From Blepharisma japonicum (lineage: Eukaryota; Ciliophora; Heterotrichea; Heterotrichida; Blepharismidae), in NCBI GenBank assembly GCA_949751835.1, contig CATKHK010000027.1:124001-188000 (forward strand): a DNA stretch of 64,000 nucleotides, read 5' to 3'. Below are positions 4,588 to 8,307 of the stretch, piece after piece. The position numbers were made by a program, and so were the translations under genes. The notes under the pieces were generated by a model. That model had not been told where the DNA came from and did not search any database. It saw nothing but the letters and a program-made list of their open reading frames with translations. The stretch's first letter is position 1; every line of letters starts with the position of its first letter.

Positions 4588-5661
4588 ATGGATAATCTCC
4601 TTTCATCCAACACTCAGGCAAAATCTGGGATCTCTAAAAAGGCCATTGCAGCAGTAAGCATCATTGGCTTAGTAGGCGTTATTGCGGCTATTGCAGTTTA
4701 TTCCGCTTCTTCCACCCCAAGCCTTCTTTTGAAGCAATTCGAGCTTGAAGAGTCTGAATTCCAAGACTTTCTCAATACTTATGGCAAAGATTACCAAGGA
4801 GAAGAGTATTTGAAACGTCTTCAGATTTTCAGAGATAACTTATCATTTATTAGAGTAAATAACTTACAAAACAACGACTGGGTACTTGGAGTCAACAAAT
4901 TCGCTGACATTACCTTTGCAGAATTCAAGCAACTCTACCTAATGGAAACCTTCACTCAGTTTGACGCAAAATACTCCAAAGACTTCCAATTTGACGTCGA
5001 GGCAGTCCCATCCAAAGTTGACTGGAGAGCCAAAGGTGCAGTAACCCCTGTAAAAGATGAAGGTGCATGTGGCGGTGGCTCATATGCATTTGCTGGAGTT
5101 GGCGCAGTCGAGTCAATATGGAATATTACTGGACACCCTCTTGTAGCTCTTTCAGAACAAGAAATAATTGACTGCACTGGGTTATATGGCAACCATGGTT
5201 GCAACTTTGGAAATGTTCAAGGTGTTTTTGAGTATGTTACTGAAAAAGGCATTACTTCTGAAGCAGACTATCCTTTTACTGCTAAACAAGGCACTTGCAA
5301 CGGTGGAGACGTATCTAAAATTGTTGCAGAAGTCGACGGATATACTGCAGTCCCAGAAAAAAATTTGACTGCTTTATTAGCTGCCAATGCTCAACAGCCA
5401 ACTGCTGTCGCCGTTCAAGCTGATCAGTCATCATGGCAATTCTATAAAGGAGGGATTGTTACTAATAACTGTGGAAACAAGCCAGACCATAGCGTTTTAA
5501 TTGTTGGCTACAACAACATTAATAAGCCTCCTTATTGGATTGTCAAGAATTCTTGGGGACCAGACTGGGGAGAAAGCGGATACATCAGGATTGCAATAAA
5601 GGACGGTGAAGGGCTCTGTGGAATCAATCTTTACCCATACTATCCTAATGGCGAGAACTAA
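4588..5661 (+). CDS. Membrane-anchored papain-family (C1A) protein with Ser replacing the catalytic Cys
   Basis: 357 residues. An N-terminal hydrophobic segment (about residues 18-41) is followed by an I29-type inhibitor prodomain (FQDFLNTYGKDYQGEEYLKR ... NKFADI) and a C1A domain starting at VDWRAKGAVTPVKD. The active-site motif is not QGxCGSCWAF but EGACGGGSYAF. There is one extra residue, Ser165 stands where the nucleophilic Cys belongs, and the oxyanion-hole Gln is Glu158. His301 (PDHSVLIVGY) and Asn321 (IVKNSWG) of the catalytic triad are retained, as are the structural cysteines. It is either a pseudoprotease or a serine-type variant, as in the SERA proteins of Plasmodium. No TGA codons. 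Start chosen at the ATG preceding the hydrophobic anchor. Confidence 0.9.
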   Translation: MDNLLSSNTQAKSGISKKAIAAVSIIGLVGVIAAIAVYSASSTPSLLLKQFELEESEFQDFLNTYGKDYQGEEYLKRLQIFRDNLSFIRVNNLQNNDWVLGVNKFADITFAEFKQLYLMETFTQFDAKYSKDFQFDVEAVPSKVDWRAKGAVTPVKDEGACGGGSYAFAGVGAVESIWNITGHPLVALSEQEIIDCTGLYGNHGCNFGNVQGVFEYVTEKGITSEADYPFTAKQGTCNGGDVSKIVAEVDGYTAVPEKNLTALLAANAQQPTAVAVQADQSSWQFYKGGIVTNNCGNKPDHSVLIVGYNNINKPPYWIVKNSWGPDWGESGYIRIAIKDGEGLCGINLYPYYPNGEN

Positions 5662-6122: not shown

Positions 6123-7200
6123 ATGGATAACTTTCTTTCACCAAAAATTCAATCAAAATCTTGGATCTCTAGAAAGCTTGTTGCTTCAGTCAGTGTCATT
6201 AGCTTAATAAGTGTTATAGCGATTATTGCTGTATATTCTCATTTTTCAACTCCAGGTCTTCTTTTGAAGCAATTTGAACTTGAAGAGTCTGAATTTCAAA
6301 ATTTTCTTATAACTTATGGCAAAAAATATCAAGGAGAAGAATATCTGAAGCGTTTTCAGATTTTTAGAGATAACTTATCCTTTATAGAGTAAAAAACTTA
6401 CAAAACAATGGTTTGGTCCTTGGGGTCAACAAATTTGCTGATATTACCCTTGCAGAGTTCAAAAAAAATCACTTAATGAGTTCATTCCCAGAAATAAGCA
6501 CTAAAAGCTCCAAAAATTCCAGAAATCCTATTGAAGGTCCTGGGCTTCCAAACTATGTTGACTGGAGAATTAAAGGTGTTGTACCCCTGTAAAAGATCAA
6601 GGCCCATGTGGAGGTGGCTCATGGGCATTTGCCGGAATTGGTGCTTTAGAGTCAATTTGGAATATCTCTGGAAACCCTCTTGTTTCCCTTTCTGAACAAG
6701 AATTAATTGATTGTGACACTGACATGGGCGAATTAGGTTGCTCATTTGGAAACGTTGAAGGCGTCTATGCCTATATCTTTCCAAATGGTATCACGTCTGA
6801 AGCTAATTACCCTTATACTGCTAAAAAGGGCACCTTCAATGCCACTAATGTATCCAAAGTTGTTGCAAAAATTATTGGATATACTCCGGTCCTACAAAAT
6901 GAATTTGTAGCTCTAAAAGTTGCCGTTGCCCAGCAGCCTACCGCAGCTGCAGTTGAAGCTGACCCATCTTCATGGCAATTTTATAAAAGTGGTGTTGTGA
7001 CCAACAATTGTGGAACGACTCCAGACCATAATATTGTTATTGTGGGATTCAGCTATAATACAAATCTTTCTTATTGGATTTGTAAAAATTCTTGGGGACA
7101 AGACTGGGGTGAGAAAGGATACATTAGAATAGGAATGACAGCTGGCAAAGGAGTGTGCGGGATCAATATGTACCCATATTATCCATATGTTGAAGTCTAA
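6123..7200 (+). pseudogene. Second papain-family copy, broken by two frameshifts
   Basis: Paralogue of the gene at 4588, collinear from the membrane anchor to the last codon. Relative to the intact copy it lacks one base near 6385 (TTTATTAGAGTAAAT versus TTTATAGAGTAAA) and one near 6582 (GCAGTAACCCCTG versus GTTGTACCCCTG). Each shift closes the frame. The intervening and following segments still encode clear protease sequence: a prodomain NKFADI, then QGPCGGGSWAF, PDHNIVIVGF and ICKNSWG. It keeps the unusual CGGGS motif, and here the oxyanion Gln is intact. Both indels could be real lesions or consensus errors; two independent ones in one copy favour a young pseudogene. Confidence 0.82.
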
Positions 7201-7236: not shown

Positions 7237-8307
7237 ATGAAAGAACTTGCACCTTATGTCCAGATGACAGATTTAGATGATTCTTTTAAAATAGCTTGTC
7301 CTATTTGTTACAATGAATTTCACAGTGCAGATCTATTAAGTTTAAGCTGCGAGGACAAGTTTTGTAAAAATTGCCTCGAGATGTTCCTAACTAACAATAT
7401 AAATGAAGGGAAAATATCAGCTATTGTGTGTCCTAACTCAACTTGTAATGCAGCATTTGCAGACAGTTTTGTAGAGTCTTTGGTATCTAAAGAACTATAT
7501 GAGAAATTCTTAAAAATCAGAGAAAATAAAACATTAGAAAAAAATCCGAACCTTATATGATGTCCAGTCCCTGACTGTGGAGGGTACAGCTATATATCAG
7601 GGCCAGGAAAAAATCAGCTATCCTGTAATAAATGTAATACAAAATTCTGCAGTGAATGCATTAGTCAATGGCATGAAGGTCCATGTCAAAGAGATCAACT
7701 ATTAGACAATTATATTGTAAGCAATAAATTAAAACGGTGCCCTGCGTGTGCAAGTTATATTGAAAAAGCGTTTGGCTGTCCCTCAGTAACTTGCACATGT
7801 GGAAGCACAATATGCTGAAAATGTGGAAAAATAATAGATGAGTCTCACGATATGGTTAAATGCATGCTTGGAGGGTCTTATGGCAGAGCGTCTTGAATGT
7901 TGATTATTATTTTGATTTTTTCTTGGATTTTATTTCCGTTTGAATTAGGATTTATGACGATTTACTTTATGGAGGACTGAGGAGATTCGAATCAAACAAA
8001 TTTTAAAAAATTCAAGGCGGCTTATTATTTTACATTAGTGATACTGTCACCGATTGGGTTGGTTTTGGCGCTACTTTTTGGAGGAATGACACCTGGGACA
8101 ATGCTAGTGTTAAATATAGCAAAAGCGTTAAAACTTGAAGAGAGAATGAATAAGAAAATAAGCAATCTGATTGTCACTTTACTTTGATTGTTAATTGTGC
8201 CAATAGTTGTAGCGCTGATTGTGGTTGCATTTTTACTAATAAATGCATTACTTCCTTTGGCGGGAATATCATTAATGGTAGCAAAATTAAATAACAAAAA
8301 TCAATAA
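7237..8307 (+). CDS. RBR-type E3 ubiquitin ligase with C-terminal membrane segments
   Basis: 356 residues read through five TGA (Trp) codons. RING1 (CPICYNEF ... CKNCL, about residues 21-50) is followed by an IBR domain beginning WCPVPDCGGY, whose first Trp is TGA-coded and family-typical. RING2 follows (CPACASYIEKAFGCPSVTC, ending CWKCG), with the candidate thioester Cys181 in FGCPS. RBR ligases pass ubiquitin through this Cys before the substrate. After RING2 come two or three strongly hydrophobic segments (about 215-245, 265-290 and 315-345), so the enzyme is probably membrane-anchored, like RNF19/RNF144-type RBRs. It starts 36 bp after the broken protease. Confidence 0.88.

Follow-up and report, generated by a model that had tools for sequence, protein, structure and literature searches.

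The ciliate Blepharisma japonicum carries a papain-family gene whose product has Ser where the catalytic Cys is expected, next to the catalytic His and Asn, which raises the question of whether this protein is a pseudoprotease or a serine-type papain and, if it no longer cuts peptide bonds, what it does instead. The gene, P0001, lies in the window analysed here, a stretch of 64,000 nucleotides on contig CATKHK010000027.1 (positions 124,001 to 188,000) of a 45.2 Mb assembly of 224 contigs. UGA was read as Trp, given that 21 of the 25 TGA codons in 48 cathepsin L-like frames fall in columns where the other rows mostly have Trp; the somatic genome of B. stoltei is likewise described as using UGA for Trp, with a size of 41 Mb and introns mostly of 15-16 bp (PMC9942806). 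The features concerned, in window coordinates, are as follows.

4588..5661, + strand: intact P0001 gene, 357 aa, a type II membrane pro-cathepsin L-like protein without the catalytic Cys (single open frame, Pfam)
4642..4698, + strand: N-terminal hydrophobic segment of P0001, residues 19-37, predicted membrane anchor (hydropathy, model)
4759..4926, + strand: I29 inhibitory propeptide domain of P0001, residues 58-113 (Pfam PF08246)
5005..5646, + strand: papain (Peptidase_C1) domain of P0001, residues 140-353
5068..5082, + strand: altered nucleophile loop of P0001, C161-G-G-G-S165 (sequence, alignments, helix start in the model)
5488..5490, + strand: His301 of P0001, equivalent to papain His159, codon CAT, retained (alignment)
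5548..5550, + strand: Asn321 of P0001, equivalent to papain Asn175, codon AAT, retained (alignment)
6123..7200, + strand: tandem paralogue of P0001, frame-broken (matches in pieces)

The fold and ancestry of P0001, whose frame ends with TAA at 5659-5661, are those of papain family C1A, cathepsin L-like. Pfam search of the translation returned Inhibitor_I29 (E 4.5e-15; PF08246, 56.2 bits against a cut-off of 24.4) and Peptidase_C1 (E 8.5e-63; PF00112, 212.8 bits against a cut-off of 20.7), and the best sequence and fold matches, among those listed, include plant papains and cathepsins. The same proteins lead the best 60 of 174 PDB matches, with no SERA protein among those 60, and neither a silicatein nor a SERA entry appeared among the listed matches of the fold search. 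The entry 2vhs, 'cathsilicatein', which judging by its name is presumably an engineered hybrid, was a general C1A match. All six papain disulfide cysteines are kept, with Cys aligned at papain positions 22, 56, 63 and 95, while Cys295 and Cys344, invariant in an alignment, are taken by homology to be the third disulfide pair. The highest 19-residue mean hydropathy of P0001 (2.75) starts at residue 19, within a helix predicted at residues 17-41 in the AlphaFold model. An earlier note on this locus had singled out the anchor as a distinctive trait, a view that could not be upheld, as a simple hydropathy threshold picked out an N-terminal hydrophobic segment in each of the 47 L-like genes, Cys-type ones among them, whose N-terminus is complete; judged in this way, the membrane anchor is a trait of the family. 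Downstream of both copies, window 7237-8307 is open for 356 aa if TGA encodes Trp, and its translation suggests a RING-between-RING E3 ligase whose C-terminal part would hold membrane segments.

The nucleophile loop of P0001 reads E158-G-A-C161-G-G-G-S165-Y-A-F168, in which Ser165 is encoded by TCA at 5080-5082. Alignment with papain placed Ser directly before Y26-A27-F28 and, in line with the single insertion described earlier, showed one residue more than papain has between Cys22 and position 25; it also matched His301 and Asn321 to papain His159 and Asn175, so that both catalytic partners are indeed intact. In a second alignment (the window paralogue and 43 translated loci, prokaryotic records), the column of Ser165 holds Cys in at least 90% of the rows. 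The AlphaFold model of P0001 has a mean pLDDT of 79.7, with block means of 92-94 over residues 151-180, and its active-site helix extends over residues 165-180, that is, it starts at Ser165; papain Cys25 is likewise found at a helix start. The two alignments and the predicted structure thus agree in placing Ser165 at the nucleophile position of Cys25, and no alternative Cys at this position was seen in the alignments or in the model.

The tandem paralogue was recovered in pieces, 6123-6440 and 6362-6589, both with stops inside, followed by 6577-7188, and its open stretch (6574-7197) contains the loop QGPCGGGSWAF, confirming the decayed copy that the earlier note had recognised; its Cys95 is replaced by Phe. 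A third, intact Ser copy was found on another contig (C66:40966-42036), with a 357-aa frame and 67% identity to P0001, carrying the inserted residue at the same place and Ser by the same TCA codon, so that TCA is used in all three Ser copies. A sequencing error or an intron as the cause of the insertion was therefore rejected, since the insertion is common to the three copies and the P0001 loop is not crossed by any GT..AG stretch of such a length (15-16 bases); two such stretches flank it (5098-5112 and 5041-5056, of 15 and 16 bases) and both lie in conserved coding sequence. A reassigned Cys codon was also rejected, because no single codon is involved: the replacements in L-like genes use TCA, GGA/GGC/GGG, GAC/GAT, CCA/CCT, GCC/GCT and TTC. 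In the L-like tree, P0001, the dispersed copy (C66:41386) and the tandem paralogue form a clade with support of 100/96 and, as Ser and the insertion are present in all of them, both predate the duplications, as had been proposed. The sister of this clade is an Asp-type gene (94/86), and next comes a pair with Ala (85/59, weak). With such relatives nearest, it is favoured that the nucleophile was lost before Ser arose; the order is favoured rather than settled, since a topology joining the Ser clade to the Cys-type gene C72 survived the test at 0.05 (p-AU 0.091). The same holds for one common origin of the L-like Ser forms (p-AU 0.083).

The family search and tree that the earlier note had called for were run on the organism's own genome and yielded, besides these three copies with Ser and the insertion, a far wider loss of the catalytic Cys. 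Profile search of the contigs gave at least 99 PF00112 matches, a lower bound as are all genome match counts here, and a search with P0001 as query gave at least 82, adding no L-like gene to the PF00112 set and only one weak fragment with stops (C81:180356). The family set comprised the 91 PF00112 matches of at least 140 residues, 90 of which cover the loop, after eight short fragments had been dropped; one of the latter, C18:423154, covers the loop and is also without the CGSC motif (CHAGWAF). Cys25 is present in 41 of the 90 loop-covering domains and absent in 49, where it is replaced by Ser (25), Gly (11), Asp (4), Pro (3), Ala (3), Phe (1), Tyr (1) or Thr (1); all genome-wide counts rest on one genome. 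The tree and motifs were used to name groups within the family. Of the 48 L-like members, 26 have Cys and 22 have another residue (G, D, S, P, A or F). Cys and non-Cys members number 6 and 12 in the cathepsin B-like set, 9 and 13 in the set of cathepsin X-like and other domains, to which one more domain lacking the loop belongs, and none and two in the pair C113 and C115. As a yardstick, 80 loci were collected from prokaryote-filed records by patterns of which the Cys loop was no part; Cys was at the position in 63 by script, and inspection of the remaining 17 by eye found it clear in 15 and probable in L142, L097 being unreadable. One of these loci, L068 (1501-2403), comes from a contig filed under Desulfosporosinus sp. 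(MAG DYPS01000100.1) that is probably a ciliate contaminant; the pro-cathepsin encoded there resembles those of eukaryotes and has a TAG in frame.

The family tree requires at least 15 switches between Cys and another residue at this position, and the tree of the 48 L-like genes at least 10, and grouping all L-like non-Cys copies as one clade was rejected (p-AU 2e-7); as read from the tree, the non-Cys copies arose many times independently. A link between loss of Cys and a Trp26-to-Tyr change is suggestive, given that the latter occurs in 11 of 22 non-Cys and 1 of 26 Cys L-like genes, but was dropped, as phylogenetically independent pairs were non-significant (median p 0.5). Outside the L-like group, 11 B-like non-Cys domains extend over the His position, and of these 3 keep His and 8 have lost it; His is also gone from all 13 X-like non-Cys domains having the loop. 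Three B-like copies in a cluster on contig C16 (C16:348461, 352758 and 357350; L042, L043) have lost His and carry a one-residue insertion at the same place in the loop (CSGGG, CTGGS and CNGGS), apparently independent of that in the Ser clade. In three L-like copies (L019 1495-2562, L032 1330-2382 and L030 1483-2544) a Cys stands one position ahead of the nucleophile site, as if shifted (CACG, CACG and CSCA, respectively), and His is kept in two of the three. On contig C1 (L059, L060 and L061) there is a tandem array, several of whose products are cathepsin X-like proteins with two domains; most domains of the array have Ser for Cys and have lost His.

Selection was analysed in the L-like set by pairwise Nei-Gojobori dN/dS, the values being approximate because several dS exceed 1. 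P0001 and the intact C66 copy gave 0.136 (dS 1.68), and the other non-Cys pairs 0.151 and 0.178 (Asp), 0.156 and 0.287 (Pro), 0.130 (Gly) and 0.236 (Ala), compared to 0.096-0.386 for six Cys-Cys pairs and 0.111 and 0.202 for two pairs of Cys with non-Cys genes. The C66 copy gave 0.190 with the Asp-type sister, a comparison saturated for P0001, and values with the tandem paralogue over its open stretch were 0.230 and 0.244. Over 208 sites with the C66 copy as outgroup, the tandem paralogue has 42 unique amino-acid changes and P0001 has 10 (chi-square 19.7); the paralogue evolves under relaxation. Assembly errors might account for its frame breaks, but its faster evolution speaks against this. 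Frames of at least 340 codons occur in 21 of the 22 L-like non-Cys copies, the tandem paralogue being the exception, and the same 22 keep Asn175 in every case, His159 in 20 and the cysteines 22, 56, 63 and 95 in 21; Asn is kept in every L-like copy (n=48). By these measures the non-Cys L-like copies are held by purifying selection, and P0001 in particular combines loss of a catalytic residue with an intact frame and, as estimated from the substitution ratios, purifying selection, which places it in a conserved pseudoprotease lineage. The low ratio of the Ser pair and the 10 changes of P0001 against 42 in the broken copy bear out the earlier note in so far as Ser is upheld in a gene under constraint.

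Taken over the whole family, the sequence evidence makes it very probable that P0001 is catalytically inactive, and we regard it as probably a pseudoprotease, i.e. a membrane-anchored, cathepsin L-like protein that has lost its nucleophile and would not cut peptide bonds. The two readings left standing by the earlier note, pseudoprotease or serine-type papain, are thereby no longer equal: the former is strongly favoured, since Asn is kept throughout the L-like genes and His in 20 of 22 non-Cys copies, and the closest relatives carry Asp and Ala, while the serine-type reading is unlikely. The conservation of such broken-looking copies suggests that they do useful work other than protein cutting. 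For P0001, where anchor, propeptide, fold and cleft are all retained, we infer that this is binding through the papain cleft.

Among the mechanisms considered, the most likely one, put forward tentatively, is that P0001 is a tethered decoy or buffer for cathepsin inhibitors or peptides. Held in place by its N-terminal anchor, it would act in the endolysosomal or food-vacuole system, where it would bind inhibitors (cystatin, chagasin-type or free propeptide) or peptides without cutting them, and this binding would protect or tune the active paralogues. This reading leads because the genome has its own clan CA inhibitors, with at least one cystatin and at least six chagasin-family matches over the cut-off in a profile search, and because an inactive fluke cathepsin binds cystatin. 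In Trichobilharzia regenti, TrCB1.5 and TrCB1.6 are inactive, highly expressed cathepsin B1 paralogues with Cys replaced by Gly, and TrCB1.6 forms complexes with chicken cystatin, if weakly (PMC7054455); the catalytic Cys of P0001 is similarly replaced, but the fluke proteins are of cathepsin B type, from a parasite, and two in number, compared to 49 of 90 domains in one ciliate genome. The decoy step itself is carried over from such proteins of other organisms. One chagasin-type match (C39:326425-326679) and the papain domain of the Asp-type sister gene (L035, C39:321000-324500) are about 3.6 kb apart; with seven inhibitor matches, at least one would lie so close by chance with a probability of about 0.07, so that the decoy reading gains no more than a lead from it. 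In the substrate cleft, Gly65 is replaced by Phe in each of the three Ser copies, which have Asn67, Val68 and Tyr205 in common as well; with so bulky a residue as Phe65 in the cleft, this clade may be ill suited to bind inhibitors or peptides in the ordinary way.

A direct partnership with active cathepsins, in which P0001 would regulate them as a trans propeptide, in a chaperone-like manner or by dominant-negative pairing on the membrane, is a less likely account. It would make use of the retained I29 propeptide and of an anchor of the same kind as that of the active paralogues, but cathepsins, with the exception of C and X, are said to be monomeric (PMC10380794). Rather less likely still is a structural or assembly role, with dead cathepsins building or coating vacuole, granule or extrusome material and the fold serving as a packing unit; the many divergent paralogues, the stable fold with its disulfide cysteines and the changed cleft residues of the Ser clade would fit, but no repetitive segment was seen by eye in the P0001 translation, and propeptide and anchor are kept as in Cys-type genes.

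The serine-type papain, in which Ser165 would act as nucleophile together with His301 and Asn321, the loop being rebuilt by the inserted residue in the manner of silicateins, was set aside as first explanation because of the family pattern of His and Asn retention, and appears improbable. Ser, His and Asn are conserved in all three clade copies, as a serine hydrolase requires, the TCA codon is identical in all of them and the model puts Ser165 at the helix start; silicateins, moreover, are natural Ser forms in which a Ser-to-Ala change ends catalysis (PMC4671257). On the other hand, intact His and Asn are no evidence of serine catalysis, as His is kept beside Asp, Gly, Pro, Ala or Phe in non-Cys L-like copies, and the clade's closest relatives have Asp and Ala. 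Measured against an active C1A peptidase, P0001 has His159 and Asn175 and is without Cys25 and Gln19, the oxyanion-hole residue being Glu158, though it is Gln in the other two Ser copies. Furthermore, Cys-to-Ser substitution abolishes the activity of papain and of cathepsins L and S (PMC4671257). Least probable of all is that the non-Cys genes are relaxed, functionless copies on their way to pseudogenes, for which one could cite the frame-broken tandem copy and a number of family fragments with stops, the majority of them from the B-like and X-like clusters, but against which stand dN/dS of 0.13-0.29 in seven non-Cys pairs, the full-length frames in 21 of 22 L-like copies and the relative-rate test.

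Returning to P0001 as a probable pseudoprotease, one of its nearest analogues is SERA5 of Plasmodium falciparum, with Ser at Cys25, which had no proteolytic activity in its authors' hands and whose Ser596Ala mutant had no phenotype, from which they conclude a non-enzymatic role (PMC4671257). P0001 shares with it a papain-like domain with Ser for Cys, His and Asn kept and Cys-type paralogues alongside, and differs in being short, anchored and cathepsin L-like with an extra loop residue. Unlike in Plasmodium SERA, Ser in the ciliate is one of eight replacements, across several subfamilies. Silicateins have Tyr at position 26, as does P0001, but to our knowledge no inserted loop residue, and we know of no silica role for this kind of ciliate. 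As papain-like sponge proteins with Ser for Cys (PMC4671257), they nevertheless resemble P0001. Human TINAG and TINAL are also listed as inactive papain-like proteins and linked to cell-matrix interaction (PMC10318531). Unlike P0001, they are animal proteins. Their architecture differs from that of P0001 too. The main text of the Blepharisma genome paper (PMC9942806) makes no mention of cathepsin, peptidase, protease or papain, and among the listed matches of a literature search on ciliates and pseudoproteases there was no report of such copies.

The pepsin-like (A1) family PF00026 has at least 99 matches in the same genome, and the first active-site motif was read in 20 copies taken at steps down the PF00026 ranking. 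D[TS]G[ST] was present in 12 of the 20; inspection by eye gave 4 with another residue for Asp itself and 4 more with changes elsewhere in the motif. Copies with active-site changes are L157, L160, L161 and L166 (whole 300-base stretches) and L162-L165. For the subtilisin family PF00082 there is at least one match, the only one found. The A1 sample, small as it is (n=20), suggests that active-site loss reaches beyond the papain relatives. It is conceivable, if speculative, that about half of the papain-family domains and part of A1 form a second, non-cutting layer of the digestive protease system, made of conserved pseudoproteases that would bind inhibitors or substrates in the food-vacuole pathway. 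If so, two unrelated protease clans would have lost the nucleophile time and again under selection, as a way to new functions rather than by incidental decay. Pseudoproteases are usually one or a few oddities per genome. Here, dozens occur in one free-living cell, with at least 15 changes at one position and selection in the L-like group, a set of natural replicates in which the role of a protease fold after the end of cutting can be studied. The family also corrects a common inference: since sister copies keep His and Asn beside Asp, Gly, Pro and Ala, a Ser beside intact His and Asn is not in itself evidence of a serine protease.
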